64,000 bases of DNA from an uncultured Opitutia bacterium (GTDB taxonomy: Bacteria > Verrucomicrobiota > Verrucomicrobiia > Opitutales > Opitutaceae), in NCBI GenBank assembly GCA_903900845.1, contig CAIUOU010000020.1:1-64000 (forward strand). Direction: 5' to 3'. The first letter of the stretch is position 1; each line of letters opens with the position of its first letter. The translations under genes and the position numbers were made by a program. Below the pieces are notes generated by a model. The model searched no databases and had not been told where the DNA came from. It saw only the letters and a program-made list of their open reading frames with translations. Below, one piece after another: positions 1,813 through 41,325 of this stretch.

Positions 1813-3846
1813 TCAGGGTTTGGCGGGATCGGGTTCCACCACGCGCTCCCGGCCGATTCTCACGGTGCCTTCCGGAGCGAGGTGGCGGGCGAGGAAGTCC
1901 TCGAGCTGGCCGTAGAAGCCGACGGACGCTTTTTCGTCGCGGAACCCGTGGCCCTGGCGGCGCTGCGAGACGGACTCATAAACTTTACCGTGTTTCTTCA
2001 GCTGGGCCTCGAGGCGGGTCCAGTGGTCGATCTTCACACGCGGATCCTTTTCGCCGTAGGCATGGAGGGTGGGCACACCGATGCGCTCGACGAAATTCAC
2101 GGGGGAGGTTGCGGCCCGGTATTCCTCAGTGGGGCCGACCCACTCCTCGCGGTAGCTGAATTCGCCGGCCTCCCGGTACGCATCCTCGCCGCGGTGTTTG
2201 AAGGTGATCTCGAGGTCGGACGCGCCGACGTAATTCACGCCGCAGCGGTAGAGTTCGGGCGTGAGGGTCAGTCCGGCGAGCGTCGCGTAGCCGCCGTAAC
2301 TGGCGCCGTAGATCGCGACCCGCGCGGGATCCGCGATACCTTCGGCCACCACCCATTTTACGCCGTCGGTCAGGTCGTCCTGCATGGCCCGGCCCCATTG
2401 GTGGCGGCCGCGATTGATGAAGTCGCGTCCGTAACCGCCGGAGCCGCGATAGTTCGGTTGGAGCACGGCGTAGCCGCGGGAGGCCAGGAACTGGGCGTCG
2501 GCGTCGAAGCCCCACGAGTCGCGGACTCCGAAGGGCCCACCGTGCGGGTGAACGATAAGCGGCACCCGGCGACCGGCGGCGTTCGGCGGAAGGGTGAGAT
2601 AACCGTGAATAAGGAGGCCGTCGCGGGCCCGGTAGCTCACCGGCCGGCGGGGCTGCAATTCCGCGGGGTCTATCCGGCGCATGCGCTTGAAGAGCGTCAG
2701 CGCCCCCGCCTTTTCATCCAACACGAAGTAGGTGCCCGGTTCACGGTCGTGGCCCACCCAAATTAACTTAACCGTCTGGTCCTGGGACTCGCTTGTGATC
2801 CTCACGTCCGAGCCCGCGAAGGTGTTTTCCAGCTTGGTCTGCAGGGCGGCGCGGTCCGCGTCGAACCAATGGTAACGCCGGCGCACGGTTTCATAGGCCA
2901 CGCCGAGCAGCCGGGTGCGGTCCGGAGTGGTGACGAGGCTGTCCTCGAGTTCCCCTTCCGCAGGGGTGAACAACGGCTCCCCCAGCGATCCGGTGGCGGT
3001 GTTGTAGGCGTGGAGCGCGCCGCGATCATGTTTCTGGCGCGAGATAAGCCAAAAGGTGCGGTTGTCGGACGCGAAGGCCAGTGGCTGCCAGTCCTCCTGG
3101 TAGCCATGGAACGGGTGCCGGGCGATCTCGCGGAAGGTGGCGCCGTCGTCGGGACGGTGTTCCCAGATGACCTCGCGGCCGACGAGCCGGCCCCGGACGC
3201 GAAGGGCGCCTAGGTTGTCCCCGAGCAGGAGCACATTCCGGTCGCTTTCCTTGAATTCCAGGACGGGAGAGCGGGCGCGATTGAAGACATTCAGCCGTGC
3301 GACCACCGCCGCGCCGCCCAGAAACATCGCGTGGTCGATATTCTCCGCGAAGTAGCCTGCCACGAGAATGCGCTGCGGGTCCCCGGGCAGCTCGTCGAGA
3401 ATGTTGGCCACGTTGCCGACGAGGTTGTCCTCGATCCGCTGCGACTCGGCGAGGCGCAGGACGCTGCGGCCGTTCAAATCGGAGGAGCCGATGAAGAAGG
3501 ACTCGTTGCCGCCGACGTCGGCGAGGAACACCAATCGGTCGTTTCCCTTCCAGAAGAAGGACACGAGACTTTCGTCCTCGCCCTTGAGAACCATACGAGA
3601 GGCGCCGGAAGCACGATCGAAGACGCCAAGGGCCAGGCGTCGCTCGTGGGGGAATAGAAACGCGATCTTCTTACCGTCGGGGGAGAGTCGCGGCTGCCTG
3701 ACTTCCGGAAGTCCGAAAAGTTGCTCGATGGTGGGCAGGGGCTGGGACGGTTGCGCGCCCCGGGCGGCCGAGCCGGCAAAGAGGAGCAGGTAAAGCGCCG
3801 TGAGGCATCGAAATCCTCGACGGGCGGGCGAGGCGGCCGGTTTCAT
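1813..3846 (-). CDS. Secreted S9-family peptidase (prolyl oligopeptidase type)
   Basis: A 677-residue serine peptidase of the S9 (POP/acylaminoacyl peptidase) family. Residues 1-30 form a signal peptide, so it acts in the periplasm or outside the cell. Residues about 40-400 carry repeated propeller blades (PxLSPDGKKIAF near the N-terminus), and residues about 430-660 an alpha/beta hydrolase domain. The catalytic triad is visible: Ser516 in GASYGG, Asp601 in GEKDPRV and His633 in GHGF. The oxyanion-loop signature HPHGGP precedes it. The propeller limits access to short peptides in this family. It is divergent from a TonB receptor 180 bp away; this arrangement is repeated with the next S9 gene, suggesting cleavage coupled to uptake. 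Exact specificity is unknown. Confidence 0.93.
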   Translation of the reverse strand: MKPAASPARRGFRCLTALYLLLFAGSAARGAQPSQPLPTIEQLFGLPEVRQPRLSPDGKKIAFLFPHERRLALGVFDRASGASRMVLKGEDESLVSFFWKGNDRLVFLADVGGNESFFIGSSDLNGRSVLRLAESQRIEDNLVGNVANILDELPGDPQRILVAGYFAENIDHAMFLGGAAVVARLNVFNRARSPVLEFKESDRNVLLLGDNLGALRVRGRLVGREVIWEHRPDDGATFREIARHPFHGYQEDWQPLAFASDNRTFWLISRQKHDRGALHAYNTATGSLGEPLFTPAEGELEDSLVTTPDRTRLLGVAYETVRRRYHWFDADRAALQTKLENTFAGSDVRITSESQDQTVKLIWVGHDREPGTYFVLDEKAGALTLFKRMRRIDPAELQPRRPVSYRARDGLLIHGYLTLPPNAAGRRVPLIVHPHGGPFGVRDSWGFDADAQFLASRGYAVLQPNYRGSGGYGRDFINRGRHQWGRAMQDDLTDGVKWVVAEGIADPARVAIYGASYGGYATLAGLTLTPELYRCGVNYVGASDLEITFKHRGEDAYREAGEFSYREEWVGPTEEYRAATSPVNFVERIGVPTLHAYGEKDPRVKIDHWTRLEAQLKKHGKVYESVSQRRQGHGFRDEKASVGFYGQLEDFLARHLAPEGTVRIGRERVVEPDPAKP

Positions 3847-4026
3847 TTCGGCGAAAACTGGGAAGCTTGGCCGTAAAATCGAGCCCGGGTTTTAAGTCAG
3901 GGAATGCCTCAACCCCGGGTTTGCAATTAGGCGCGGTATTCGCCTCCCTAACTGGTTCGATAAGCACCTTCAAGCCGCCACGGCGGCCCTCTTAGACCCA
4001 ACAAACCCAAGAACCAAGCAAACCCA
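3847..4026. promoter_or_regulatory. Divergent promoter region between S9 peptidase and TonB receptor
   Basis: This 180-bp space must hold the promoters of both genes. It contains a direct repeat CCCGGGTTT at 3884-3892 and 3914-3922, about three helical turns apart, each copy built on a CCCGGG palindrome. That is a plausible operator for a shared regulator. I could not pick reliable -35/-10 boxes. Confidence 0.35.
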
Positions 4027-6774
4027 ATGAACAAACCGCTGCTATCCGCCGTTCGCGCCGCCAGGCGCCTCGGCTTTGCCACCGCCGTAGGTGCGGGCGT
4101 CGTCTTCGCCGCCCAGCCCACGGTGTCCACCAACGAGGTCCAGAAACTGGAAAAGTTCGTCGTCACGGGATCCCTCATTCCGATCGCGGCTGGCTCTCCC
4201 GCCATCCCGGTGACCGTCATCAGCGCCCCGGACATCGAGAAGACCGGCGTGAGCACGGATCTCCTTGATGTTCTCAAGAAGACCCAGCCCGCATTCTACG
4301 GTTCGAACAATATCGGCTCGGAGAACGGTAACATCTCCTCGGGCTCCACCAACGGCGGCTCCCAGGTCTCGTTGCGCAACCGCGCGACCCTCGTGCTGAT
4401 CAACGGCCGCCGAGCCAACATCTCCCCGGTGCTCGCCAGCGGCGGCGCCAGCTTCGTTGATGTGAGCGTGATCCCGATCTCGGCCGTGGAGCGCATCGAG
4501 GTCCTGTCGGACGGCGCCTCCGCGACGTACGGCTCCGACGCCGTTTCCGGCGTGGTGAACATCATCCTCAAGACCAACTACTCCGGCACCGAGATCGGCG
4601 GCACCTACGGCTGGAGCCCGAATAATGGCAAGTGGTCGAATCGCAGCTACTTTGGCGTCGCCGGGGCCAGCTTCGGCAACACCAGCCTCACCATCACCAC
4701 CGAGTGGAAGAAGAGCGATCCGCTCATCCAGTACGAGCGAGACTTCGCCAAGGGCCAGTTCCGCACTCCGTCCTTCGCGGGCTCCATCAACCTCGCCGGC
4801 ACGACGGATTTCTACTTCCTCGGCGGCAGTCGTAACGCGCCCCCGCAGAACCTGGATCTGACTCCGGCCCAGGCGGTCTCGCAGGGCATCTATCAGGGGC
4901 CGCTCACCCAGGACCAGGTCGCCCAGTTCTTCGATCTGGCCAACTACCCGACCATGCTCCTGGACGCGCAACGCCGCAGCTTCACCGCCGCGGTCGAGCA
5001 TCGCCTGACCCCGGACACGACGCTGTTCGGAGACTTCATCTACTCCCTCAACGAGACTGAGTCGGTCCTGAACGCCCAGCCGGTCTCCGGCAACGTCGTG
5101 GCCGCCAATCCGAACAACCCCTTCAACGTCACCGTCACGGCCCGCAACCGTTTTGTTAATTTCCCCCGTATCTATGACAACCAGTCGACCAGCATGCGCG
5201 GGGTCGTCGGGGTCAAGGGCAAGCTCGCCAACGGCTGGAACTACGAGCTCGGCGGCAACTTCAACCGTACCGACCATGCCTACCGGAACAAGAACCTGAT
5301 CGATGCGGTTAAGTACACCGAGCTGGTTAACTCCGGCGCCTACAACCCGTTCGCGATTCGCCAGAATCCGGGCGTCATCGAGAGCATGCTCGGCGTCCAG
5401 TTCCGCAATTATGACAGCCAGCTGAACAGCTTCGACCTTCGCCTGAACGGCAGCCTCTTCCGTCTGCCCGCCGGCGACGTGCAGCTTGGCGTCGGCGCCG
5501 AGACGCGCTGGGAGTCGCTCAGCTTCATGAACGACCGCTTCGACCAGACCGGCCAGTGGCTCCAGGCCACCCCGCGTCAGCCGTTTGCGGCGCGTTCGAC
5601 CACCGACGGCTTCTTCGCCGAGGTGCGCGTGCCGATCTTCGGCGGGTCCCGGACCGCTCCCGGTTTCCACGTCCTCGAGCTCTCCGCGGCCGGCCGCAAG
5701 GACATCTACAGCAAGACCTCCGACCCGACCGTGCCGAAGGTTTCGTTGCGCTGGCTGCCGTTCAACGACGAGCTGGCGATCCGCGGCACCTACTCGGAGT
5801 CGTTCAGCGCCCCGACCTTGTTCGACCTCTTCGGGCCGGTTTCGCAAGGGTTCACGTCCTCAATCAACATCACCCGCTACAACAACTCGGGTACCTCGCT
5901 GGGCGTCGCCTCCGGCTCCCGTCAGTACCGCTCGCAGAGCGGCTCCAACTCGAGCTTGAATCCCTCGCAGTCCCGCAACTGGTCCGCGGGCGTGGTCTGG
6001 TCGCCCAAGTCCATCAAGGGCTTCTCGGTCACCGCGGACTGGTTCAACATCGACGAGCGGGATCTGATCTCGTCGATCAGCTCCGTGCTCATCGTCACCG
6101 ACGTTGAGCAGAAGGGCCCGGCGTCCCCGTACGCCAGCCTCGTGCGCTTCGGCACGAGCCTCGCGGGCGAGGTCTACTTCGGCACGGGTTCGGCCGTCAC
6201 GAGTCCCGGCCAGATGACCAACCGTCCGTCGGACGAAATCTGGATCTCCAACTCGATCGTGAATGTCGCGGGTTACTGGCAGGACGGCATGGACGTCACC
6301 GCTAACTACAAGTGGACCGCGCAGGGGCTCGGCAATTTCAGCGCCTCGCTGGCCGGCACCTACATCCGCGAGTACGCCGTGCAGAGCCTGCCCAGCGGCG
6401 CGGTTTCCCGTTACCAGGACGGCTTCTCCGGTTCGGCGGTGTATCCGCGCTTCCGTACCCGCTCCAACCTCGACTGGAGTCACGGCAGCTGGAACGCGAC
6501 CGTCGGTCACACCTGGATTCCGGAAGTCGACGACCTCGCTTGGTCGACCGAGTACCGCGTGGAGAGCTACCACACGTTTGACCTGCGTTTCGGTCGCAGC
6601 TTCGCCAACTCCTCGAACCGTTGGCTTCGCGGCCTGCAGGCCAACCTGGGCGTGAACAATGTTTTCAACAAGGTTCCGCCGCTCATCCGCTCCGAGGGCA
6701 ATCAGTCCCGCGACATCAGCACCTACGATCCGATCGGCCGTTACATCTACGCCTCGGTGAAGTACAAGTTCTGA
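4027..6774 (+). CDS. TonB-dependent receptor (complete)
   Basis: A 915-residue outer-membrane active transporter. Residues 1-29 are a signal peptide ending FAA. The box LEKFVVTGS (residues 41-49) sits where a TonB box is expected. The plug (about 60-200) shows the family motifs INGRR, VERIEVLSDGASATYGSDAVSGVVNII. The rest is barrel, ending with NNVFNKVPP and a terminal Phe (VKYKF). No SusD-type gene or N-terminal extension (signalling or carboxypeptidase-like domain) is present. It is divergent from the S9 peptidase at 1813-3846, which argues for a peptide-type substrate. The start is the ATG shortly after A-rich leader AACCCAAGAACCAAGC, with no strong ribosome-binding site. Confidence 0.95.
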   Translation: MNKPLLSAVRAARRLGFATAVGAGVVFAAQPTVSTNEVQKLEKFVVTGSLIPIAAGSPAIPVTVISAPDIEKTGVSTDLLDVLKKTQPAFYGSNNIGSENGNISSGSTNGGSQVSLRNRATLVLINGRRANISPVLASGGASFVDVSVIPISAVERIEVLSDGASATYGSDAVSGVVNIILKTNYSGTEIGGTYGWSPNNGKWSNRSYFGVAGASFGNTSLTITTEWKKSDPLIQYERDFAKGQFRTPSFAGSINLAGTTDFYFLGGSRNAPPQNLDLTPAQAVSQGIYQGPLTQDQVAQFFDLANYPTMLLDAQRRSFTAAVEHRLTPDTTLFGDFIYSLNETESVLNAQPVSGNVVAANPNNPFNVTVTARNRFVNFPRIYDNQSTSMRGVVGVKGKLANGWNYELGGNFNRTDHAYRNKNLIDAVKYTELVNSGAYNPFAIRQNPGVIESMLGVQFRNYDSQLNSFDLRLNGSLFRLPAGDVQLGVGAETRWESLSFMNDRFDQTGQWLQATPRQPFAARSTTDGFFAEVRVPIFGGSRTAPGFHVLELSAAGRKDIYSKTSDPTVPKVSLRWLPFNDELAIRGTYSESFSAPTLFDLFGPVSQGFTSSINITRYNNSGTSLGVASGSRQYRSQSGSNSSLNPSQSRNWSAGVVWSPKSIKGFSVTADWFNIDERDLISSISSVLIVTDVEQKGPASPYASLVRFGTSLAGEVYFGTGSAVTSPGQMTNRPSDEIWISNSIVNVAGYWQDGMDVTANYKWTAQGLGNFSASLAGTYIREYAVQSLPSGAVSRYQDGFSGSAVYPRFRTRSNLDWSHGSWNATVGHTWIPEVDDLAWSTEYRVESYHTFDLRFGRSFANSSNRWLRGLQANLGVNNVFNKVPPLIRSEGNQSRDISTYDPIGRYIYASVKYKF

Positions 6775-6796
6775 TCCGGGAAAAGATCCTTCCCCG

Positions 6797-6825
6797 AAGC
6801 CGGGCCCACAAGGGCCCGGCTTTTT
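6797..6825 (+). terminator. Intrinsic terminator after the second TonB receptor
   Basis: An 11-bp stem of the type AAGCCGGGCCC pairs with GGGCCCGGCTT across the 4-nt loop ACAA at 6808-6811 and runs into five T. It separates the receptor from the convergent S9 gene. Confidence 0.9.
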
Positions 6826-6893
6826 GTGTCACAAAAAATGCCCCGTCGGGTCGACGGCAGGCAGGTCCGCGTGACGCTGAAGCGTGACCTGCG

Positions 6894-8993
6894 TTATTCC
6901 CCGCTGCTGACCGGAACCGGGGTGCCGACCTTCACCCGCCCTTCGGGGACGTTCATGTTGCGTTCGAGGAAGGCCTCCACCTTGGCATAGAAAGCCAATT
7001 TATTCTCCAGCTTCCGGAATCCGTGTCCCTCGTTCTCCTCGATGATGGCCTCGAATTCCTTGCCGTGCTGCTGAAGGCGTGACTCGAGTTTCTGCCATTG
7101 GTCGAAACGCACGCGCGGGTCGTTCTTGCCGTAGGCGGCGAGCAAAGGGGCGCGAATCGCCTCGATGTGGTTGATCGGGTTCACGGCCCGCATGCGGTCG
7201 GCGTCCTTGACCGGGTCAAGATTGGTGATGGACCGCGCTTCATCCAGGATGCGGGGCGGGGTGAAGCCTCTGCCGCCGCCGGAGCGCAGCTCGAGGTCGG
7301 CCACGCCGACGTAATTGATGCCGAGGCAGAACAGGTCCGGAGTGAGGGTGAGTGCCGCCATGGTGGCGTAGCCGCCATAGCTCGCGCCGAAGATGCCGAC
7401 GCGGGAGGGATCGGCGTAGCCCTGCTCGATGCACCAACGCACGCCGTCGGTCAGATCATCCTGCATCTTGCCTCCCCACTCGCGGTAGCCGCCGCGCTGG
7501 AAAGAAAGCCCGTAGCCACCGGAGCCGCGGTAGTTGACCTGCAGGATGGCATAGCCGCGGCTCGCCAGAAACTGGATCTGCTCGTTCCAGCCCCACACGT
7601 CACGCGGACCGTAAGGGCCGCCGTGCGGGATGAGGATCATGGGGAGTTTCTTCAATTCCTTCCCGGCCGGCACGCTGATGTAGCCCGGGATTTCGAGGCC
7701 GTCGCGGGCTTTGAAGCGGATCGGGCGCATTTCCGCCATCCGCGCGGGATCAATTTTTGGGCGCACCTTGCCGATGAGCGACATCTCCTGTTTCTCGGAG
7801 TCGAACAGGTAGTACGTTCCGGGGTCGCGATCGCTCGCTGCGAGCACGACCATCAGTTTGCCGTCCGCGGAGGAGCTTACGATGAGGTTCCGCGTCCCCG
7901 GCAGCGCGCCGTCGAGGTCACGCGCGATCTTCGCCATGGCTTCATCCAGCCATTTCACCTCGGAGTAGTCGTCGGTGTGCGAAATTCCGGCCAGATCGCC
8001 CTTGGCGTTGAAGATCAGACCGTCGACCGCGGCGCGCGAGGAGAGTCCGCCGCGACGGTAATTAGCGAGACGATCCCCTGGCTCCACCCGGGGATGGTGG
8101 AAGATCACCGGTCCCCACGCACCCGTCTCGGGGTCGAGCGTGCGAATGGCCGCGGTGTCGTGCTCCATGAAGCTTTTCACGTACAGCGTTCGGCCGTCCT
8201 TTGCGAAAACGGAGGGTCGCCAGTGTGGTTCGAGCGGTGAAGCTTCCTCGAAGAGCAGCGAGATCTCGCGGCTGAACTCGCCGATGGTTCGCCATTCGTC
8301 CTTCGAAGAGCGCCGGTACTTGACCCTCACCGGTTCGGTGAAGTCCGTGCAGATCGCTGCGCGCACTTCTCCGTTGGCATCGGCGATCCAGACCCGGGCG
8401 CCGATGTAGTTTGTTTCATGGACTACCTCCCGTCCGTTGCGGATGTTGACCTTCACCACATCTCCAAGTCCGGAATTTCCGCGGAGGCGGTTCATCAAGA
8501 TATGGTCGCGGTCCTTGGGTAGCAGGCTCACCAACGTCTTGGGCAAATCCCGCACCCCGGATGGAAGATCGCCCTCGCCCAGGCCATCTGCGGTGGCTTC
8601 GACCTTCTCTAACTTGTTGATTACAATAAGATTGGATCCATCTGGATCACAGGCAAACATGCCGTATTGTTCCCTTCCGCCGTATTGTTGGGCAAAAAGG
8701 ATCCGGTCCGGCTTTGCCCACACATGGGAAACCACGCTCTCGATCTTCATATCTGTGAGCCAGCGTAGTTTGCGCGTTTCGCGGTCGAGAATCGCGAGGT
8801 TCATCCGTTGGTTCTTGGGCGCCAGCCATGTCAGGTAGCGTCCCGTTGGCGAAAGTTGCACCGCCTGCACCTCAGGATCCGCAAAAATTTCCTGGAGGGT
8901 AGGGGGCGGAGGATTCGTGGATGCTTCGCGCGCCTGCGTCGCAGGCATCGGAACAGCCAACAAAGCGATAAGCGAAAGCAGCAGGAGTCGCAT
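6894..8993 (-). CDS. Second secreted S9-family peptidase
   Basis: A 699-residue paralogue-like relative of the S9 peptidase at 1813-3846. I start it at the ATG at 8993 because it begins directly with a signal peptide (MRLLLLSLIALLAVP...TQA); the upstream in-frame extension has no export features. Propeller blades fill about residues 40-430 (QLSPTGRYLTW), followed by the hydrolase domain with the oxyanion motif PHGGPYG, Ser538 in GASYGG, Asp625 in GKNDPRV and His657 in GHGF. Segments such as MQDDLTDGV.W and GINYVG[AV][SA]DLE are shared with the first copy. It is divergent from the receptor at 9191, repeating the S9/receptor arrangement. Substrate preference is not visible from sequence. Confidence 0.93.
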   Translation of the reverse strand: MRLLLLSLIALLAVPMPATQAREASTNPPPPTLQEIFADPEVQAVQLSPTGRYLTWLAPKNQRMNLAILDRETRKLRWLTDMKIESVVSHVWAKPDRILFAQQYGGREQYGMFACDPDGSNLIVINKLEKVEATADGLGEGDLPSGVRDLPKTLVSLLPKDRDHILMNRLRGNSGLGDVVKVNIRNGREVVHETNYIGARVWIADANGEVRAAICTDFTEPVRVKYRRSSKDEWRTIGEFSREISLLFEEASPLEPHWRPSVFAKDGRTLYVKSFMEHDTAAIRTLDPETGAWGPVIFHHPRVEPGDRLANYRRGGLSSRAAVDGLIFNAKGDLAGISHTDDYSEVKWLDEAMAKIARDLDGALPGTRNLIVSSSADGKLMVVLAASDRDPGTYYLFDSEKQEMSLIGKVRPKIDPARMAEMRPIRFKARDGLEIPGYISVPAGKELKKLPMILIPHGGPYGPRDVWGWNEQIQFLASRGYAILQVNYRGSGGYGLSFQRGGYREWGGKMQDDLTDGVRWCIEQGYADPSRVGIFGASYGGYATMAALTLTPDLFCLGINYVGVADLELRSGGGRGFTPPRILDEARSITNLDPVKDADRMRAVNPINHIEAIRAPLLAAYGKNDPRVRFDQWQKLESRLQQHGKEFEAIIEENEGHGFRKLENKLAFYAKVEAFLERNMNVPEGRVKVGTPVPVSSGE

Positions 8994-9190
8994 GGAATTG
9001 GAATCAGCGGGGTTGCGGCAGCGTGTCAAACCGCGCGCAGCCGATCGCGTTTGCGGTCCGAACACGGGAATCAATCCAAGGTTCAGGTTTGCGAAGTTAG
9101 GGGAATCCTCTACCGGATTGTTTGTTAATCCATCGCTGGACGGCCTTTGGTCGTGCCGGCGGTTCGTCTCAAACCTACCCAAAAACCATA
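8994..9190. promoter_or_regulatory. Divergent promoter region of the second S9/receptor pair
   Basis: A 197-bp spacer between two divergent starts. A short inverted repeat GGATT (9115-9119)/AATCC (9127-9131) with a 7-nt spacer lies about 60 bp before the receptor start. The CCCGGGTTT repeat seen in the equivalent spacer at 3847-4026 is not present, so regulation may differ between the two pairs. Confidence 0.3.
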
Positions 9191-12145
9191 ATGAAACTGA
9201 TGCCCGCCTCCGTTCGCGCGGGTCTGGTGGCCTCGGCCGTCGTTGCCGTCGGCTTCGCCCAGACCAACACCACGCGTCCCGCGTCGAACTCCCCCACCGA
9301 ACCTGTGAAGCTCGAGAAGTTCGAGGTCACGGGCTCGAACATCAAGCGTGTCGATGTCGAGGGGCCCTCGCCGATCAAGATCATCACCCGTCAGGACATC
9401 GAGGTGTCCGGGCGTACCAATCTGACCGACATGCTCCGCGAGCTTCCGGAGGCGGGCCAGATCGGCATCAACGAGTCCGGCACCATCTCCGCGGTGCGCG
9501 GCTCCACGGCGCTCGACCTGCGTGGCCTCGGTGCCAATAACACGCTGGTCATCGTCAACGGACGTCGCGTCGCCCCGACCGGCAACAACTCCGGCGGCAC
9601 GGTGTTCGTCGACCTCAACCGTTTCCCCATCGCCATGGTGGAGCGCGTCGAGGTGCTTAAGGACGGCGCCTCGGCCATTTACGGCGCCGACGCCACCTCG
9701 GGCGTGGTCAACGTCATTCTGCGCAAGGACTACAACGGCGCCGAGGTCGGCTTTAGTTACGGCAATTCCCCCCGCACCGATGTCCACGAGAAGTCCGCGA
9801 CGTTCTTCGGTGGCGCCTCGGCGGGCAAGGCCAGCGCGACGGTAGGAATTTCCTACTTCGAGCGCGGTGCGCTCCGCGCGTCAGACACCCCGTTCGCCAA
9901 CAACGCCGACCTCTCGGCTAGATTCGCCGCCCGGGGTGCGGCTTACGCCGACAATGTCGCCGCCGGTGCTTTCGACCTCCGGTCCGGCACGGGTCCGCAG
10001 GCCCGTATCGGCCTGACCGGCGCCGCCGCTGGCCAGATCAACGGCCAGAACGGCGTCAACATCCCCGGACTCGCCCCGGGTGCCGCCATCACCCGACTGC
10101 CCGGCACGGGCGGCGTCGCCGCGGGCACGCTCGCCTCGGCCTCGCCGAGCTTCTCGTCCCCCTTCCGTTCCGCCACGAGCGGGTCGTTCAGCGCCGCCGG
10201 GACCGCTTCCTTCGAGCCGCAGCGTCTCGTTCCCCAGGGTAATCCTTCCAACTTGTACAACTTCCAGGAGTTCGTGTGGCTGACTCCTTCGACGGAGCGC
10301 ACCGGCATCAACACCACCTTCCGGTACGACATGACGCCCACCACGAGCTTCTACGTCGAGACCGCCTACCAGAACAACAAGACCCACATCGAGCTCGCCC
10401 CGTCCCCGATCTCCACTGCGGGTGACAACAACATCATCGTCCCGAAGACCAACTACTGGAATCCCTTCGGCGTCGACGTTTCGTTCAACTACCGTCCGGT
10501 CGACATCGGTCCCCGCATGGCCGACATCACCAACGATTCCTACCGCATGGTGTTCGGTGTGAAGGGCTCCATCGGCACCAACTGGCAATGGGATGCCTAC
10601 TACTCCTACGACAACGACAAGGTCGTGGATCAGACCAAGAACGCCATCTCGGAGAGCCGCTTGCGCGCCTCGCTGGCCCGGAACACGCCGGATGCGATCA
10701 ACATCTTCGGTGGCGCCACCTACCGCAATCCGGCCTCGGTGTTGGATTCGATCCGCGTGACCACCCAGAAGGGTGGCTATTCGACGCAGGATCTGTGGCA
10801 CGCCCAAGTTTCCGGCGAGCTTGCCCAGCTCCCCACCGGCCCCCTCGGCAGCGCGTTGCTCGTCGAGACCCGCAAGGAGAAGTTCGGCGAGGCCAACGAC
10901 GCCATCTCCACGACGCTCGATGACATCATCGGCCAAGTGAAGCTGGCCAACTCCACCGATGCTCGCCGGACCGTGAAGTCCGGCGCGATCGAGTTGAACG
11001 CGCCGCTCGTGCGGCCCGAGTTGATTAATTTCGTCAACCGCCTCGACCTGACGGTCGCCGGCCGCTACGAGAAGTTCAGCGACGGTTACACCTCCGGCCT
11101 CACCCCGTACTACGGCCTGCGCTACCGTCCGAACAAGTCTCTGGTGGTGCGCGCCACTTACAATGAGGCCTTCCGCAGCCCGACCCTGCCGCAACTCTAC
11201 GGTGGCGTACGCGAGTCTCTGCCCAACGGCCTGGGCGATCTCCGTCGCCCGCAGGCGCTCACCGGCGATCCTTTTGACGGTGCGGCCACGCAGCGTCTCG
11301 TGAAGGCTGGCGGCAATCCCAACCTGACCCCGGAGCTCGCGAAGGGCTGGCAGTACGGCTTCATCTACGAGGTTCCGTTGAAGAAGCTGCAGGGGCTGTC
11401 CTTCGGCGCCTCCTTCTTCCACATCGAGCAGACCAACATCATCACCTCCGTCGGCACCGGTTTCATTCGCCAGAACGAGGTCGGCGGCGGCACCAGCGAC
11501 CTCGTCGTCCGTGACGCGGCCTCCGAGACCTACACCAACCGCACGGCGGCCCCGATCAACGTACTGTCGGGCCCGAACGGCGCCACCTCGCCCGTGGCCC
11601 CCGGCCAGACAGTCACTGTCCCCGGTCGTATCCAGTACATCTCCGACAGTGTCGTGAATCTGGCCTTCCAAAAGGTCGAGGGCTACGACTTCGAGGTTAA
11701 CTACCGCAAGCGCACGACCGACTTCGGTCAGTTCAGCGTTCGCAGCAACGCGACCTACCTGAAGTTCTACGGCTTCACCCGCACGTCGAATCCCGCGAAC
11801 CTGGCCGGCCGTGACGGCTTCCCGCGCGTGCGCGTGCAGTCCAGCCTGCTCTGGACCCGCAAGGAGCACAGCGCCGGTATCACCAACAACTACATCGGGC
11901 CCTACAGCGACATCAACCGCGACGGGTACGAGGTCGAGAGCTACTCGACCTTCAACGCGTTCTACGGTGTTGACCTGCCGGCTGGCACGTTGGGCTTCCT
12001 GACCAACACCCGCGTCACGCTCGGTGCCGACAACCTCTTCGATAAGCGGCCGCCGCTCTACTACGACTCGATCGGTTACGAGAGCGGCTACGTTTCCCGT
12101 CCGGTCGGCCAGTTCTTCTACGTCTCCCTGCGGAAGACGTTCTAA
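9191..12145 (+). CDS. TonB-dependent receptor (paralogue A)
   Basis: A 984-residue outer-membrane receptor. The ATG at 9191 is preferred over upstream in-frame codons because it begins the signal peptide (MKLMPASVRAGLVASAVVAVGFAQ) and puts the LEKFEVTGS box at residues 41-49, the same position as in the neighbouring receptors. Plug motifs include LGANNTLVIVNGRRV and VERVEVLKDGASAIYGADATSGVVNVI. The barrel ends with DNLFDKRPP and a final Phe. It is a close paralogue of the receptor at 15088: both carry LYGGVRESL, LRRPQALTGDP, PDA[IL]NIFGG and STAGDN. It is the receptor partner of the divergent S9 gene. Confidence 0.95.
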   Translation: MKLMPASVRAGLVASAVVAVGFAQTNTTRPASNSPTEPVKLEKFEVTGSNIKRVDVEGPSPIKIITRQDIEVSGRTNLTDMLRELPEAGQIGINESGTISAVRGSTALDLRGLGANNTLVIVNGRRVAPTGNNSGGTVFVDLNRFPIAMVERVEVLKDGASAIYGADATSGVVNVILRKDYNGAEVGFSYGNSPRTDVHEKSATFFGGASAGKASATVGISYFERGALRASDTPFANNADLSARFAARGAAYADNVAAGAFDLRSGTGPQARIGLTGAAAGQINGQNGVNIPGLAPGAAITRLPGTGGVAAGTLASASPSFSSPFRSATSGSFSAAGTASFEPQRLVPQGNPSNLYNFQEFVWLTPSTERTGINTTFRYDMTPTTSFYVETAYQNNKTHIELAPSPISTAGDNNIIVPKTNYWNPFGVDVSFNYRPVDIGPRMADITNDSYRMVFGVKGSIGTNWQWDAYYSYDNDKVVDQTKNAISESRLRASLARNTPDAINIFGGATYRNPASVLDSIRVTTQKGGYSTQDLWHAQVSGELAQLPTGPLGSALLVETRKEKFGEANDAISTTLDDIIGQVKLANSTDARRTVKSGAIELNAPLVRPELINFVNRLDLTVAGRYEKFSDGYTSGLTPYYGLRYRPNKSLVVRATYNEAFRSPTLPQLYGGVRESLPNGLGDLRRPQALTGDPFDGAATQRLVKAGGNPNLTPELAKGWQYGFIYEVPLKKLQGLSFGASFFHIEQTNIITSVGTGFIRQNEVGGGTSDLVVRDAASETYTNRTAAPINVLSGPNGATSPVAPGQTVTVPGRIQYISDSVVNLAFQKVEGYDFEVNYRKRTTDFGQFSVRSNATYLKFYGFTRTSNPANLAGRDGFPRVRVQSSLLWTRKEHSAGITNNYIGPYSDINRDGYEVESYSTFNAFYGVDLPAGTLGFLTNTRVTLGADNLFDKRPPLYYDSIGYESGYVSRPVGQFFYVSLRKTF

Positions 12146-12170
12146 CGAACCCCGGCTGAGGGTTTGAACA

Positions 12171-12199
12171 AAGGGGCGGCCTGAGGGCCGCCCCTTTTT
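12171..12199 (+). terminator. Intrinsic terminator after paralogue A receptor
   Basis: A perfect 9-bp stem GGGGCGGCC (12173-12181)/GGCCGCCCC (12186-12194) with loop TGAG is followed by TTTTT and flanked by an A-run. It ends transcription about 30 bases after the stop codon, so the next receptor probably has its own promoter. Confidence 0.92.
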
Positions 12200-12266
12200 G
12201 CTTTTCTGGAACAAGCTGGCCGCTGGCCCGCCGGCTGCTTCCATGCATTGCAAACCCTCCTATCCC

Positions 12267-14969
12267 ATGGCTCCACGCGTCCTCTGCCCCTCTGACTTCG
12301 CGCGCCTCGCGCTGTTCGTGATCCTGATCGCCCCGCTCGGCGCGCAGCAGCCGCCCGCTCCCGCGGCCACGGAGGGGCCGGCCAAGCTGGAGGCATTCGA
12401 GGTGACGGGTTCGCGGGTCAAGCGGCTCGATTACGAGACCCCTGTGCCCGTGATCACCTTCACGGCCGAGCGGATCGAGGAAAAGGGCTACGCAACGCTC
12501 GGTGAGTTCGTGCAGAGTCTCCCTTACAACAGCGCCACCGCCAACTCTGAGTTCACGACCGCGAGCTTCATCACCGGCGCATCCACGGTTAATCCCCGCG
12601 GGTTGGGCTCCAATCGCGTGCTCACGCTGGTCAACGGCCGCCGCGCTGTACCCTATGCGCTTACCAACAGCGCCAGCGGCACGCCCCAGACGGTCTTCAA
12701 CTTCAACAGTGTCCCGGCCTCCGCCATCGAGCGGATCGAGTTTCTCAAGGACGGCGCCTCCGCGCTGTACGGTTCCGACGCGATCACGGGGGTTTACAAC
12801 CTGATCCTGCGGAAGAATTACGTGGGCTCTTCGGTGGATCTTTCCCTCTCGAACACCATCGGCCACGACACGTTAAGTCGGCGGCTGAGCGTCTTCACCG
12901 GTCTGGCGCGCGACGGCTGGGAGATCACCGCGGGCTTCAATTACCAGAGCCGCAACGCCAATTTTCTTTCCGATTTCGGGGTGACCACGACCGACTTCCG
13001 CTTTCTCGGGGTGAAAGGGGCCAACCAGAACAGCACGATTTTCCGCCCAAGCTACCTCGCGCTCACCGCCGCGCAGGCCTCGGCCGCCGGCCTCGGCACC
13101 GCCTCGGGATATTACATCATCAACGGTGGCCAACCCGCCGCCAGTCCCACCAAGGCGAGTTTCACCTACGTGGGCACGTCGACCGCGGGCATCCCGAACT
13201 CCAACCGGCTCGACTTCGCCAATAACACGATGATCTACCCGGAGAGCGAGAGCTTCGGCGGATACGTCGGCGTCAATCGCACGCTCCGCGGCGGCGTGAC
13301 CGCCTTCGGCCAGGTCATGTTCAACCGCGGTTTCACCCACTACGAGTTCACGCCCTACGGCTACACCACGTCGCTGGCCGGGATCACCTTTCCCGCAACC
13401 AATCCCTACAATCCCACCGGACTTTCCCTCACCGGCACGTCCACGTCCGCACCATGGACGTTCCGCGGCACGATCCGCCCGGCACGCGAGGTCAAGACCG
13501 CCACCGCCTCGGCGCTTGCCGGGCTCCGCGGCACGATCGGCCGCGGGTGGAGCTGGGAAACCGGCGTCAGCTACGGCCAGAACGAAACCATGCGCGACAC
13601 GGACCTGATCCGCGCGGCTGACCTCCAGGCCGCCCTCAACGGCACGACGCGCGCCACCGCCTTCAATCCCTTCGGCCCTTCCGAGGATCCCAATCTGGAG
13701 GCGCGCCTTTACACCCGCTCCCGCGGTCTCGACGGTCGGATCTCATCACTGACTTGGGACGCCAACCTCAGCGGCGCCCTGTTCCGTCTGCCGTTCGCTG
13801 GGGCCGGCGACCTCGGCTTCGCCGTCGGGGCCGAGCACCGCCGCGACCACCTGCGCTCCAATCCGGAACCGAACAACTTCATCGGATTCACCGCCACCAC
13901 GCCCTACGAGGGCCGCCGCCGGATCAGCGCGGGTTTCCTCGAGGCCTCGGTGCCGCTGCGGAAGTGGCTCGAGTTCCAGCTCGCGGTGCGGCACGAGCGT
14001 TACAGCGACTTCGGCGAGACCACCAAGCCGAAGTACAGCGGCAAGGTGCGCCTGCCCGCCAATCGTTTCGTCAATGTGCTGCTGCGCGGCTCGTGGTCGG
14101 AGTCGTTCAAGGCTCCCGACATCGGGCAGCTCTACCAGCCCCAGTCGTTCGCGGTCACCTCGGCGAGCATCAGCGACCCGTTGCGGCCCCAGGACGGCGC
14201 CCGCCAGCTGCGGGTGCTCGTCGGCGGCAACCCCGCCCTGAAGCCCGAGGAGGGCACCGTGCAGTACGCCGGCGCGGTCTTCGAGGTTCCCGCGCTCCGC
14301 GGCCTCAGTCTCAGCGTCGATCACTTCGACATCAAGGTGCGCAATGTCATCACGACGCTTGGCGCCAGCTATCTCCTGAGCGCGGAGGGCACCCGACTCT
14401 TCCCGAATGCCGTCGTGCGCGACAACGCCACCCAGAATCCCGGCCCGATCTCTTTCCTCTACGGGATCTCCAACAATCTCGGTCTGCAGTTGTTCCGCGG
14501 CATCGATTACGGCGCGCGCTACTCGTTCCGAACCTCGCGACTCGGCAGCTTCACCCTCACCGCGGACGCCACGCAGATCCTGAAGCGTGGATCGGACGCG
14601 GGGCAGGGGGCTGGTTTCTTCGACAACACCGGGCTCTATTTCGACGTCGAGTGGCGCTACAACTACGGCGTTTCATGGCGTCGCAACAACTGGGGCGCGA
14701 GCATCTCCGCCGATGTGATCGGGAAGTTTTTCAACGACCGGCAGGCCACGGCGATCTTCCCCGGCTGGGGCGAGAACGTCTACGCGGTCATCAGCCCCGC
14801 TTTGACCTACCGCGGCTTCAAACGCACCACGATCACCGTCGGCTCCACCAACGTGCTCGACAAGCGGCCGCCCCCGAACGGCTTTCTCGTGCTGGGCTTC
14901 GACGACCGAGCCTACGGCGCCGGTGCCCTTGGCCGCACCGTCTCGCTGCGGATCCGCCGCGAATTCTGA
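12267..14969 (+). CDS. TonB-dependent receptor (distinct subgroup)
   Basis: A 900-residue receptor. In-frame ATGs exist at 12243 and 12267; I choose 12267 because it gives a clean signal peptide (FARLALFVILIAPLGAQ) and places LEAFEVTGS at residues 41-49 as in its neighbours. The plug shows LVNGRRAVPY and IERIEFLKDGASALYGSDAITGVYNLILRK. The barrel ends with NVLDKRPPP and terminal RREF. It sits between the two close paralogues at 9191 and 15088 but lacks their shared internal motifs, so it was not produced by the same duplication. The ligand is unknown; the neighbourhood suggests peptides. Confidence 0.94.
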   Translation: MAPRVLCPSDFARLALFVILIAPLGAQQPPAPAATEGPAKLEAFEVTGSRVKRLDYETPVPVITFTAERIEEKGYATLGEFVQSLPYNSATANSEFTTASFITGASTVNPRGLGSNRVLTLVNGRRAVPYALTNSASGTPQTVFNFNSVPASAIERIEFLKDGASALYGSDAITGVYNLILRKNYVGSSVDLSLSNTIGHDTLSRRLSVFTGLARDGWEITAGFNYQSRNANFLSDFGVTTTDFRFLGVKGANQNSTIFRPSYLALTAAQASAAGLGTASGYYIINGGQPAASPTKASFTYVGTSTAGIPNSNRLDFANNTMIYPESESFGGYVGVNRTLRGGVTAFGQVMFNRGFTHYEFTPYGYTTSLAGITFPATNPYNPTGLSLTGTSTSAPWTFRGTIRPAREVKTATASALAGLRGTIGRGWSWETGVSYGQNETMRDTDLIRAADLQAALNGTTRATAFNPFGPSEDPNLEARLYTRSRGLDGRISSLTWDANLSGALFRLPFAGAGDLGFAVGAEHRRDHLRSNPEPNNFIGFTATTPYEGRRRISAGFLEASVPLRKWLEFQLAVRHERYSDFGETTKPKYSGKVRLPANRFVNVLLRGSWSESFKAPDIGQLYQPQSFAVTSASISDPLRPQDGARQLRVLVGGNPALKPEEGTVQYAGAVFEVPALRGLSLSVDHFDIKVRNVITTLGASYLLSAEGTRLFPNAVVRDNATQNPGPISFLYGISNNLGLQLFRGIDYGARYSFRTSRLGSFTLTADATQILKRGSDAGQGAGFFDNTGLYFDVEWRYNYGVSWRRNNWGASISADVIGKFFNDRQATAIFPGWGENVYAVISPALTYRGFKRTTITVGSTNVLDKRPPPNGFLVLGFDDRAYGAGALGRTVSLRIRREF

Positions 14970-15087
14970 CCGGTCCGGCCGGGTTGGTAATTCTCCGTTG
15001 CGCGGCGAGCTCCGGCCGGCCAAGGCTGCGCCGTTCCCAGAAACAGCCGGCTCGCCCCTTGAACACCCCGGCTGCGGCCCATTCCCC

Positions 15088-18036
15088 ATGAATATCCATC
15101 CCCCGTCGTTGCGTCCCGTCCTCGGTTTTTTCCTGCTCCCGCTGCTTGCGTGCGCCCCCGCCGCCGCCCAGTCCGCCCCGGCCTCCGGTCCGACCCAGCT
15201 CGAGAAATTCGAGGTCACCGGCTCCCTCATCAAGCAGGCGGAGATGGAGGGCCCGTCCCCCCTGCGCCTGATCACGCGCGAGGAGATCGCCCTGTCGGGT
15301 ATGGACAACCTCACCGACATCATGCGCGACATGCCCGAGGCCACCAACCTCGGCATCAACGAGGGCGGCACCACCACCGCCGTGCGCGGCGCCTCCGCCA
15401 TCGACCTCCGTTTCCTCGGGCCCAACAACACCCTCGTGCTGGTCGACGGTCGGCGCGTCGCCCCCAACGGCATCAGCAGTGGCGGCACCGTGTTCGTCGA
15501 TCTCAACCGCATTCCCGTCTCGATCATCGAGCGCGTCGAGGTGCTGAAGGACGGCGCTTCGGCGGTCTACGGGTCCGACGCCACCGCGGGGGTCATCAAT
15601 ATCATCACCCGCAAGGATCACGTCGGACTCGAGGTGACGGCGCGCTATGGCAATTACTTCAACACCGACGGTGGCGAGCAGTCGTACTCCCTCTTCGCCG
15701 GCACGCGCGCCAAGGGGCTTCGCGTCAACGTCAACGCCTCCTACACGTCGCGCCACGCCAACGCCGCGACCGACCAGCCGTTCTCCGCCAACGCGGATCA
15801 GACCGAGCGCTGGCGCGCCTACGACGCGGTGAAGTACGCCTCGGCCCTCCGGCCGACCGCGACCGCGACCAGCGCGTTCGACGGGCGTTCGGGCACCGGT
15901 CCGTACGCCACCGTTGGTATTCCCACGGCGTCCCAGCTCGCGAACAACGGCTTCACGGCCGCCGCCATCCGGAACCCGCTCACCGGGACCGCCGCCACCT
16001 TCCTGCCGGGAACCGGCGGAGTCGCCGCGGGCACGCTCGGCAGCTCGGGTAACTACGCTTCCGTGCCGCGGGGCAGCAATCCCGCGCGGCCGAGCGCCGA
16101 GCAGTTCGTGCCTCGCGCCTACCCGGCGGGTGAATTCAGCAACTCCTACAATTTCCAGCCCTTCGTCTGGAACGTGCCCGAGCGCCAGACGCGGAACATC
16201 AGCGTGGGCCTCGGGTACGATCTTCCTTGGAACATCAACTTCGAGGCCGCCGTTCTCGCGGGCCGCATCCAGTCCGAGACCCGCCTCGCGCCGTCGCCGG
16301 CCTCGACCGCGGGCGACAACGACATCCTCGTTCCCGCCTCCAACTACTACAACCCGTTCGGCATCCCGGTCGCGTTCACCTACCGCCCGCTCGAGGTCGG
16401 CCCGCGCATCGCGCGTATCACCAGCGAGTCCGAGGGCTACCGAGCCGGATTGCGCGGCCTGGTCCTAGGCCGCTTCGATTGGGACCTCGGCTGGTCCTAC
16501 ACCAAGAACTCCTCGATCGACTACACCTTCAACGCGATCAGCGAGAGCAAGCTCCGCGCCGCGCTGGCGAAGAGCACGCCGGACGCGCTCAACATCTTCG
16601 GGGGACCTTCCTTCAAGAACGATCCCGCGACGATCAACAGTATCAAGACCGTGACCTCGGCGTCGGGTAACGCCGACACCACCCTGGTGGACGGCCGCGT
16701 CACCACCACCGAGCTCGTCTCCCTGCCGTGGGGCCGCGTTGGCGCCGCCGCCGGGCTGCAGCATCGCGCCGAGCACTTCAATTCCACCAACGACCCCCAG
16801 TCGACCTACCTCAATGACATCATCGGCCAGGTGCGGCTCGCCGATCCCACCAACGCGGGCCGCACCGTCGACGCCGCCTCGCTGGAGCTGCGCATGCCCT
16901 TGGTGAAACAAGGGCGTTACCGTTTTCTTTACAGCGTGGAGTTGGGCGGAGCCGCCCGCTTTGAGCGCTTCAGCGACGGGTACGACAGCGGGATCAAGCC
17001 CGGTGCCCGGCTGGCTTTCCGCCCGACCCGCAACTTCCTGCTGCGCGGCTCCTACAGCGAGACGTTCCGTTCGCCCACCCTCCCTCAGCTTTACGGCGGT
17101 GTGCGCGAGAGTCTCGTCAGCAGCCTGCCTGATCTCCGCCGGCCGCAGGCGCTCACGGGGGACCCGGTCGACGCCAGCACCTACCAGCGCCTCGTGCGCA
17201 CGGCGGGCAACCGGAACCTGAAACCCGAGGATGGCATCACCAAGCAGACCGGATTCGTGTTCGACGTTCCCGGCCGCTGGCTCCGCGGGCTTTCCCTCGA
17301 GTTCACCCACGGGGTCATCGAGCAGAGGAACCTGATCACCTCGGGCCTGGGCACCACGTTCATCCGCCAGAACGAACTCACCAGCACGGGTGATCTCGTG
17401 GTTCGCGACCCGCAGTCCGAGACCTATCGCAACAACACCACGGCCGGAATCGCGATCCTCGCCGGCGCGGGCGGCGTCACGCGGCTGGTCCAGCCCGGTG
17501 AGTCCGTCACCGTGCCGGGGCGCATCCGTTTCATCACGGATTCGGCCGTCAACCTGGCCCAGCAGATGGTGCGCTACTATGACTATGGGGTCCGCTACCG
17601 TCTGCGGACCTCCGGGTTCGGGAGCTATTCCTTCTCCAGCAACTGGACCTACATGGGCTTCTATTCGGCCCGCCGGTTCCAAAACGATCCGGTGGTGAGC
17701 AGCGTCGGCCGCAGCCTGCCGCGCTACCGCGGCCAATCCTCGCTGTTCTGGCAACACCGCTCTTGGGCCGCGAGCTTGTCGTCCACCTATATCCACCGTT
17801 ATCGCGATCTCACGCGTGACGGTTGGGAGGTAAACCGCTACCACACCTTCGGCAGCAGCCTGAGCTACGGTTGGGACAAACGTTCCAAGCTCGGAGATCT
17901 GCGGCTCACCCTCGGGCTGGACAACATGTTCGACCGCCAACCGCCGCTCGATAATTCCAACGTCGGTTACAATCAGGGTCTGGTGGGTCGGCCCGGCGGT
18001 CGCTTCGCCTACCTGAGCGCGCGCCGGTCCTTCTGA
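15088..18036 (+). CDS. TonB-dependent receptor (paralogue B)
   Basis: A 982-residue receptor started at the ATG at 15088, which opens a signal peptide (LGFFLLPLLACAPAAAQ) and puts LEKFEVTGS at residues 38-46. Plug motifs are LGPNNTLVLVDGRRV and IERVEVLKDGASAVYGSDATAGVINII. The barrel ends DNMFDRQPP and a final Phe. It matches the receptor at 9191 along its length, including AISESKLRAALAKSTPDALNIFGG-like, DIIGQVRLA and LYGGVRESL segments. It follows the preceding receptor by 118 bp without a visible terminator, so the two may be co-transcribed. The convergent tRNA nucleotidyltransferase gene begins 15 bp after its stop. Confidence 0.95.
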   Translation: MNIHPPSLRPVLGFFLLPLLACAPAAAQSAPASGPTQLEKFEVTGSLIKQAEMEGPSPLRLITREEIALSGMDNLTDIMRDMPEATNLGINEGGTTTAVRGASAIDLRFLGPNNTLVLVDGRRVAPNGISSGGTVFVDLNRIPVSIIERVEVLKDGASAVYGSDATAGVINIITRKDHVGLEVTARYGNYFNTDGGEQSYSLFAGTRAKGLRVNVNASYTSRHANAATDQPFSANADQTERWRAYDAVKYASALRPTATATSAFDGRSGTGPYATVGIPTASQLANNGFTAAAIRNPLTGTAATFLPGTGGVAAGTLGSSGNYASVPRGSNPARPSAEQFVPRAYPAGEFSNSYNFQPFVWNVPERQTRNISVGLGYDLPWNINFEAAVLAGRIQSETRLAPSPASTAGDNDILVPASNYYNPFGIPVAFTYRPLEVGPRIARITSESEGYRAGLRGLVLGRFDWDLGWSYTKNSSIDYTFNAISESKLRAALAKSTPDALNIFGGPSFKNDPATINSIKTVTSASGNADTTLVDGRVTTTELVSLPWGRVGAAAGLQHRAEHFNSTNDPQSTYLNDIIGQVRLADPTNAGRTVDAASLELRMPLVKQGRYRFLYSVELGGAARFERFSDGYDSGIKPGARLAFRPTRNFLLRGSYSETFRSPTLPQLYGGVRESLVSSLPDLRRPQALTGDPVDASTYQRLVRTAGNRNLKPEDGITKQTGFVFDVPGRWLRGLSLEFTHGVIEQRNLITSGLGTTFIRQNELTSTGDLVVRDPQSETYRNNTTAGIAILAGAGGVTRLVQPGESVTVPGRIRFITDSAVNLAQQMVRYYDYGVRYRLRTSGFGSYSFSSNWTYMGFYSARRFQNDPVVSSVGRSLPRYRGQSSLFWQHRSWAASLSSTYIHRYRDLTRDGWEVNRYHTFGSSLSYGWDKRSKLGDLRLTLGLDNMFDRQPPLDNSNVGYNQGLVGRPGGRFAYLSARRSF

Positions 18037-18051: not shown

Positions 18052-19464
18052 TCAGCCCGGTGGTGATTCCAACCGGCGGCGCGCCCATGCCAGCGCGCCT
18101 TCCTCATCGCGGAAGGCTCCGTCCAGCTGGGCCTCGAACGCCGCATTGAGAATGACTTTCATCGCCGGTCCGGGCGGAAGTCCGAGCTGAATGAGGTGGC
18201 GTCCCAGCAACACCGGCCGGGGCGCGAGCCGCTCCAGCTTCAGCGTGCGCGCCTGCGCGACGAGTGCGTCGATTCGCCGGTGAACCTCCGGCGTCGCCAA
18301 GGGCGGACGTCCGTCCGCGTCGGCCCGCATCACCGCCGCCAGCTCCTCGATCGTCGCCGGCGCCAGGCGTCGCGCCAGCCGGCGCACGGCGGAGGGAGAT
18401 AGTTCCTCCTGCCCGCTGAAGTGTGCGAGATGATTGACGACGAGCGCCCGCACCGGGTCATCCAGCCGCAGCGGGGCCCCGATCCGTCGCAGCAGGCGCA
18501 CCGCGGGATCGCCCCCCGCCGCCTCGTGTCCCGGGCTGATCCAGCGCTGGCGACCTTTCTTCTCCGCCAGCACGGTCGTCGCCGGTTTGCCGAAATCGTG
18601 CGCGAGCACCGCGAACATCAGGCGTTCGCGCCGTGAGGGGTCCGCATCCCGCCACGCGGCCGCCTTGGCCAGGGCGTCAAGGCAATGGCCGGTGTGCGTG
18701 AAGACGTCCCCTTCAGGATGCCACTCCGGGTCCTGCGGCGTGCCGCGCAGCGCGGCGATCTCCGGAAAGTGCGCGATCCAACCCGTCTCCTCGAGAACCT
18801 GCAGTCCCCGCGACGGGCGGGTCGCCTTCAAGGCCCACTTTTCCCATTCACCCCACACGCGCTCCACGGGTAACTCGGCGAAGGAGTCCGCGATCCCGCG
18901 GCACAACGCCACCGTTTCGGGCGCGAGCGTTAGCTCGAACCGCGCCGCCAGCTGGAAGGCGCGCAGGACCCGCAACGGGTCCTCGGTGAACGCCGCGCTC
19001 GTGTGGCGCAGCACGCGCGCGCGCAGATCAGCCTGCCCGCCGTGGGGGTCGATCAGGCTTCCGCTGAAGGGATCGACGGCGATCGCGTTGAGGGTGAAGT
19101 CCCGGCGCGCCGCCGCAGCGGCGTCATCGAGTCCGGGGTCGGGCGCGACCGCGAAGCCGCGGTGGCCTGAACCGGTCTTCGATTCCCGTCGCGGCAGGGA
19201 AAAATCATACTCCTCGCCGGTTGCGCGGCTCCGCACTTTGATCACCCCGAAGCTGCGGCCCACGATGTCGGTCGCGCCGAAGGGCTCCAAATCCCGGTGC
19301 AGGGTTTCGAAGTCCACCCCGCCGACCTCGACGTCGAGGTCCTTTGAAGGCAGTCCCAGCAGCCAGTCGCGCACGCCGCCCCCGACGATACGCGGACGGC
19401 CATGCCGTCGCACCGCGTGCAGCATCGCCCGCAGGTCCTCGGGTAACGGCAGAGCGGGGTTCAT
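18052..19464 (-). CDS. cca: CCA-adding tRNA nucleotidyltransferase with HD domain
   Basis: A 470-residue class II nucleotidyltransferase that builds or repairs the 3' CCA end of tRNAs. The head domain has GGGVRDWLLG (28-37) and the metal-binding KDLDVEV with Asp42/Asp44, then RRDFTLNAIAVD, the RRD motif of the family. The neck region (LRVLRAFQLAARF) follows. An HD domain is visible near the middle (HTGHCLDALAKA and LAHDFGKPATT), as in multifunctional Cca enzymes with phosphohydrolase activity. The start codon overlaps the stop of the upstream DUF423 gene (ATGA at 19461-19464), so the two are translationally coupled. A poly(A) polymerase activity is an alternative reading but the motifs fit Cca better. 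Confidence 0.9.
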   Translation of the reverse strand: MNPALPLPEDLRAMLHAVRRHGRPRIVGGGVRDWLLGLPSKDLDVEVGGVDFETLHRDLEPFGATDIVGRSFGVIKVRSRATGEEYDFSLPRRESKTGSGHRGFAVAPDPGLDDAAAAARRDFTLNAIAVDPFSGSLIDPHGGQADLRARVLRHTSAAFTEDPLRVLRAFQLAARFELTLAPETVALCRGIADSFAELPVERVWGEWEKWALKATRPSRGLQVLEETGWIAHFPEIAALRGTPQDPEWHPEGDVFTHTGHCLDALAKAAAWRDADPSRRERLMFAVLAHDFGKPATTVLAEKKGRQRWISPGHEAAGGDPAVRLLRRIGAPLRLDDPVRALVVNHLAHFSGQEELSPSAVRRLARRLAPATIEELAAVMRADADGRPPLATPEVHRRIDALVAQARTLKLERLAPRPVLLGRHLIQLGLPPGPAMKVILNAAFEAQLDGAFRDEEGALAWARRRLESPPG

Positions 19465-39750: not shown

Positions 39751-39790
39751 AGAAAGGCAGGGGGCCGGCGTGCGGATGGTCCGCCGCGGG

Positions 39791-41270: not shown

Positions 41271-41325
41271 GCCCGCCGCAACTCCCGGCTTGCGGGACGC
41301 CGGCCGCGGTGGCGCGCTCTTCTCC

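Follow-up and report, generated by a model that had tools for sequence, protein, structure and literature searches.

The two S9 peptidases (S9a and S9b) encoded near the left end of the 64,000-nucleotide stretch of Opitutaceae DNA analysed here (the window), together with the TonB-dependent receptors (TBDR1 and TBDR2) divergent from them, are, judging from their phylogenies, two old and separately evolved couples, and the finding that relatives keep the same partners together suggests that these are matched systems for the uptake and cutting of small peptides. The gene anatomy, the intact catalytic triads, an adjacency to receptors that is specific to the S9 subfamily and the matched phylogenies of the partners were observed directly. 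The reading that we consider moderately probable as a whole is that of matched import-and-cut couples, in which a receptor would import peptides and the S9 enzyme would then cleave them in the periplasm.

Organization of the gene island

The window is contig C20 in a draft assembly that totals 4.40 Mb in 205 contigs and is 96% complete. Read from left to right, the island holds the C-terminal part of a receptor (TBDR0), a small secreted protein, S9a, TBDR1, S9b, TBDR2, TBDR3 and TBDR4, followed by a gene of the poly(A)-polymerase/CCA-adding type. The features are as follows:

1-828, + strand: TBDR0, C-terminal 275 aa (N-terminal 749 aa at the end of contig C142, ~977 aa in total; clade 0)
858-888, + strand: hairpin and T run resembling an intrinsic terminator, between TBDR0 and the gene of the small protein, read directly from the sequence
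929-1501, + strand: small secreted protein, 190 aa, with motif GPFRGWSGGTYFPLENGQVWRQ near its C-terminus; without Pfam match
1813-3846, - strand: S9a peptidase, 677 aa, signal peptide, triad Ser516/Asp601/His633
3847-4026: divergent intergenic region of 180 bp, common to S9a and TBDR1
4027-6774, + strand: TBDR1, 915 aa, receptor clade I, partner of S9a
6798-6825: hairpin with T run in the gap where TBDR1 and S9b converge, read directly from the sequence
6894-8993, - strand: S9b peptidase, 699 aa from its ATG, signal peptide, triad Ser538/Asp625/His657
8994-9190: divergent intergenic region of 197 bp, common to S9b and TBDR2
9191-12145, + strand: TBDR2, receptor clade II, partner of S9b
12173-12199, + strand: hairpin with T run 3' of TBDR2, read directly from the sequence
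12267-14969 (or from an ATG at 12243), + strand: TBDR3, receptor clade III
15088-18036, + strand: TBDR4, receptor clade II, paralogue of TBDR2
18052-19464, - strand: poly(A)-polymerase/CCA-adding-type gene

A preliminary description of this DNA had reported a five-receptor array with two S9 peptidases, each carrying an intact triad and a signal peptide and each divergent from a receptor, and this anatomy was confirmed. The catalytic residues are exactly those given there, the strands and gene order of S9a/TBDR1 and S9b/TBDR2 were confirmed, and the N-termini of both peptidases look, by eye, like Sec-type signal peptides without a lipobox. Its statement that SusD, ABC-transporter and regulator genes are missing was borne out among the island proteins scanned, which gave no match to any of these families, and no common operator was found by eye in the two divergent intergenic regions. 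The array does comprise five receptors, of which TBDR0, TBDR3 and TBDR4 are not paired with an S9 gene within the window.

The fifth receptor, TBDR0, is cut by the contig break only and is completed on contig C142. The last 141 bases of C142 are exactly the first 141 bases of the window, and C142 and C20 are therefore taken to be chromosomal neighbours. The two parts of TBDR0 jointly cover one full-length homologue; the window part is 80% identical over its own length to the C-terminus of the TBDR of a relative, and its 275 residues alone gave no Pfam match, while the C142 half carries a Plug match at C142:10145. A pseudogene at the contig edge was thus ruled out, since the exact overlap completes the gene. 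On C142, TBDR0 is directly preceded by a tRNA-Leu gene (7496-7579 of L191, the locus at the end of C142; + strand), a possible island boundary that would then suggest a mobile island. Elsewhere in the window, the plus strand encodes a 1128-aa protein at 21806-25192 with DUF7133, HEAT and cytochrome c matches and a sub-threshold GDSL match, and ORFs at 31937-34180 and 39698-41353 that are putative genes of 747 aa and 551 aa without Pfam match.

Relationship of the two peptidases

Both peptidases match the Peptidase S9 family (PF00326) with 151 bits for S9a and 160 bits for S9b against a Pfam cut-off of 22.6, and all three residues of the Ser-Asp-His triad are invariant across 39 aligned family members. 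The A2 S9 profile gave a full-length match to the acylaminoacyl peptidase 5l8s, and the AlphaFold model of S9a (pLDDT 88) had this enzyme and the S9 carboxypeptidase 8wt1 as its best matches among solved structures; the S9 proteins of the window differ from these enzymes in their signal peptide, their linkage to receptors and an identity of only 19%.

The couples had been described as a duplicated module, a claim that has to be revised. S9a and S9b are 37% identical, and in a tree of 144 S9 proteins S9a falls in clade a (support 1.0, n=44) and S9b in clade b1 (support 0.985, n=14), with a third clade, b2, also well delimited (support 1.0, n=29); the partner receptors TBDR1 and TBDR2 are 28% identical. 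Because of the low identity of the peptidases and their separate clades, a recent duplication was rejected, and the split, if called a duplication, is an ancient one.

Membership of S9a and S9b in two characterized S9 groups was also rejected, both proteins being below the model cut-offs, which were applied to S9a and S9b only. The Dpp5 model (NF053518) gave 67.0 bits for S9a and 59.5 bits for S9b against an equivalog cut-off of 900, and the Atxe2 lasso isopeptidase model (NF033523) gave 65.1 and 56.3 bits against an equivalog cut-off of 400. These scores bear on the explanation that the couples are relatives of the lasso isopeptidase systems, with the S9 enzyme opening capped, cyclic or threaded peptides, made by the organism itself or by its neighbours, after import. 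The available text of PMC9266682 describes clusters (AtxE2, SpI-IsoP) that have an S9/POP-like enzyme and a TonB-dependent transporter together, and all isopeptidase clusters known there carry such a transporter; this is the likeness to our island, and the Atxe2 model was matched at E <= 1e-5 by all 39 S9-family members scanned (39/39). However, these matches are weak, S9a and S9b stay far below the cut-off, and the Dpp5 model matched them as well or better. Moreover, the lasso B2 protein (PF13471) had no match in the 96% complete source genome, and neither a GntR nor a sigma/anti-sigma gene was matched in the island. We thus regard a lasso isopeptidase relationship as very unlikely.

Adjacency of S9 peptidases and receptors in related genomes

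Membership of the S9 family required a score of 640 bits or more on a model seeded with window sequence and a length of at least 450 aa, and a receptor was scored as adjacent when it lay directly next to the S9 gene, within 1 kb. Gene calls came from a simple script that takes the longest ORF, and TBDRs were recognized by models built for this analysis. The loci comprised 60 high-scoring regions from a search of the family genomes, which are not a random draw, and 80 loci from named genomes; near-identical species were counted as one only if their sequences agreed in all of the last 300 residues. Ten lower-scoring S9 proteins were kept apart (1 adjacent to a TBDR, 7 not, and 2 at contig ends).

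The results showed that, after removal of duplicates, 79/123 S9-family members have an adjacent receptor and 33/123 have none, the other 11/123 being cut by a contig end. The numbers were 42 adjacent, 16 not and 3 cut for the family-genome loci including the window (n=61), and 37 adjacent, 17 not and 8 cut for the named-genome loci (n=62). The neighbouring receptor was upstream on the same strand in 46 cases, divergent in 25, downstream on the same strand in 10 and convergent in 9. The rule is conservative, as one S9 gene each in L053 and L064 was scored as non-adjacent with a TBDR less than 1 kb away (an overlap or a small gene between).

Relatives of S9a were found at E <= 1e-40 in 111/150 genomes of the family, and at E <= 1e-100 in 13/194 genomes across the phylum, all 13 of which are from the family of the window. 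Entire subclades of S9a relatives lack the receptor, and at one such locus (L043) a 3-beta-HSD-type dehydrogenase and an AMP-binding enzyme adjoin the peptidase gene. The gammaproteobacteria with an adjacent TBDR include Psychrosphaera saromensis, Pseudoalteromonas shioyasakiensis and Colwellia, and those without include Pleionea and Aliikangiella. At L163, L178, L150 and other gammaproteobacterial loci, the S9 gene has no adjacent TBDR, although in the tree it groups with TBDR-linked members of the same clade, a pattern of receptor gain or loss within the clade.

As a control, loci of the next-nearest (sister) S9 subfamily were sampled within the bacterial family of the window: 0/20 have an adjacent TBDR, and in one a TBDR follows with two ORFs between; the comparison of 42/58 with 0/20 gave a Fisher p of 3.7e-9. 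In the source genome itself, 0/7 of the other S9 genes are adjacent to a TBDR, two of them being contig-cut on one side. The preliminary description had proposed looking for the adjacency in relatives, and taken its absence there as evidence against a link; no such absence was found. Since the adjacency recurs in the family of the window and in Gammaproteobacteria and is missing at 20/20 sister loci, a functional link between the S9 enzymes and the receptors is supported. Literature searches returned no report of the S9/TBDR pairing in titles or abstracts, and the available portions of PMC3409153 and PMC3400609 contain nothing on it.

Matched clades of peptidases and receptors

The pairing was analyzed for 67 S9 genes that have a TBDR no more than 1 kb upstream. 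Fixed clade partners were found in 61/67 pairs, with 15 of clade a with clade I, 12 of b1 with II, 25 of b2 with III, and 9 of other with other. The six exceptions (6/67) are L040, L169 and L046, where clade a goes with III, III and 0, respectively, L053 (b2 with II), and L064 and L090 (other with III); in L040 and L169 an S9a-type gene and another S9 gene share a single clade-III TBDR. Receptor clade II has a support of only 0.114 when L053 is included. None of the 16 class-A control TBDRs from the source genome falls inside clades I, II or III, and the sole one in clade 0, at C142, is the other half of TBDR0.

The distances in the S9 and TBDR trees were correlated (Mantel r 0.80), and 0/2000 permutations gave a value as high. 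Because relatedness alone can yield a correlation of tree distances, a swap test within loci was added, in which the real assignment of partners at the 8 loci with two couples gave r 0.915, the best of 256 within-locus swaps (next 0.842). These data also weigh on the explanation of neutral clustering, by which S9 genes would be close to receptors by chance in a TBDR-rich genome or through shared regional descent. Even though the 118 Plug matches in the source genome speak for it, the 0/20 result in the sister subfamily and the matched clades argue against it, and the swap test, in which species history is held fixed, favours real pairing. Neutral clustering was already disfavoured, and we give it only a very slim chance.

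Family assignment of the receptors

Four of the five island receptors (TBDR1-TBDR4) match both Plug (PF07715) and TonB_dep_Rec_b-barrel (PF00593) above the cut-offs. None of them reaches the SusC/RagA-type model TIGR04056 (cut-off 368.25), for which TBDR4 was the best with 43.3 bits and TBDR3 had 19.7 bits. The model of TBDR1 (pLDDT 81) had PirA and PfeA as its best solved matches, with the first SusC types at rank 25, and by both fold and sequence the nearest solved receptors are those for siderophores, colicins and B12, at an identity by fold alignment of 14-17%, which is not decisive for the ligand.

Such neighbours are one point in favour of a Fus-like piracy for iron, in which a peptide carrying iron or haem would enter through the receptor and be degraded in the periplasm by the S9 enzyme. 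The similarity to siderophore receptors, however, lies mainly in the plug. All TBDRs resemble one another in the plug region. The other point in favour is gene linkage, as a receptor gene is linked to a periplasmic protease gene in the Fus and related systems (FusA-FusC, YddB-PqqL) and some Fus-type clusters have proteases other than FusC, according to the available text of PMC6793856. This likeness is limited by the class of enzyme, FusC and PqqL being M16 metalloproteases and the island enzymes S9 serine peptidases; no M16 protease was found by Pfam among the island proteins scanned, no FusB-type TonB gene was seen in the island, and no iron-uptake or regulator family was matched among the proteins scanned. 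Iron piracy is thus considered rather unlikely.

The small secreted protein

The gene at 929-1501 was absent from the preliminary description. Its product of 190 aa begins with a signal-like sequence and is conserved towards the C-terminus around ENGQVWRQ. Homologues above 100 bits were found at 19/111 S9-family loci including the window (18 others), mostly just downstream of a TBDR, and the family as a whole is present in 99/150 family genomes at E <= 1e-8, by a model made from members at S9 loci and biased to them. Among 20 places of the small protein away from S9 genes, 3 adjoin a class-A TBDR, and all 3 have a neighbour with a GH20 domain; the three neighbours of ~830 aa that were scanned are gyrase A. 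A role as a partner of S9 enzymes only was rejected, as the family also occurs in S9-free places, including near gyrase A. At L255, L260 and L261, a class-A TBDR is followed by the small secreted protein and then by a convergent GH20-domain protein, with no S9 gene. Because S9-free class-A receptors adjoin a GH20 protein, relatives of the island receptors may take up sugars or glycopeptides, and these cases are evidence that class-A receptors are not all peptide receptors.

Proposed function and comparison with known systems

In the mechanism we propose, TBDR1, TBDR2 and their neighbours, powered by TonB, would take small peptides, or compounds that contain peptides, through the outer membrane, and the periplasmic S9 enzyme encoded beside each receptor would cut the imported compounds small enough for uptake through the inner membrane. 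The S9a/TBDR1 and S9b/TBDR2 couples would have differing specificities and are set beside further receptors and the small secreted protein. We infer the periplasmic location and the order of import before cutting because the signal peptides are plain, without a lipobox, and because there is a precedent in Porphyromonas gingivalis, where RagAB takes up oligopeptides that DPP5 and other S9 enzymes cleave in the periplasm (available text of PMC8048996). The ligands would be peptides, and iron-bearing peptides or glycopeptides stay among the candidates.

The preliminary description had assigned to the S9 enzymes the release or trimming of receptor ligands, and in this explanation a surface or secreted enzyme would act outside the cell, with the receptors importing its products. 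The signal peptides do indicate export from the cytoplasm. However, neither a lipobox nor a surface anchor was seen, and DPP5 of P. gingivalis, likewise of the S9 family and with a plain signal sequence, resides in the periplasm (available text of PMC8048996), so that the proposed order is probably to be reversed and trimming outside the cell has little probability.

The likeness proposed between the island and RagAB/DPP5 is TonB-type import of oligopeptides with S9 cutting in the periplasm. The two differ in that RagA is SusC-like with a RagB/SusD partner, whereas the island receptors score below the SusC/RagA cut-off and have no SusD, and in that the enzyme and receptor genes are adjacent in the island. 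Compared with RagAB/DPP5 or Fus, the best reading is that the island uses S9 enzymes and non-SusC receptors instead. A bolder version, which we offer as a speculation with a low chance of being right, is that each couple fits, like a lock and key of its own, one class of unusual (capped, cyclic or threaded) peptides made by neighbouring microbes, that receptor and linearising peptidase co-evolved as a unit across Opitutaceae and marine Gammaproteobacteria, and that the small protein would be a capture factor replacing SusD.

Significance

The Opitutaceae have very many TonB receptors, and a peptidase inherited together with a particular clade of them gives a hint of what those receptors bind. 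If true, the reading of matched import-and-cut couples names receptor-substrate pairs that can be tested, and it would extend protease-linked import across the outer membrane from the M16 and SusCD types to S9 enzymes and ordinary receptors.
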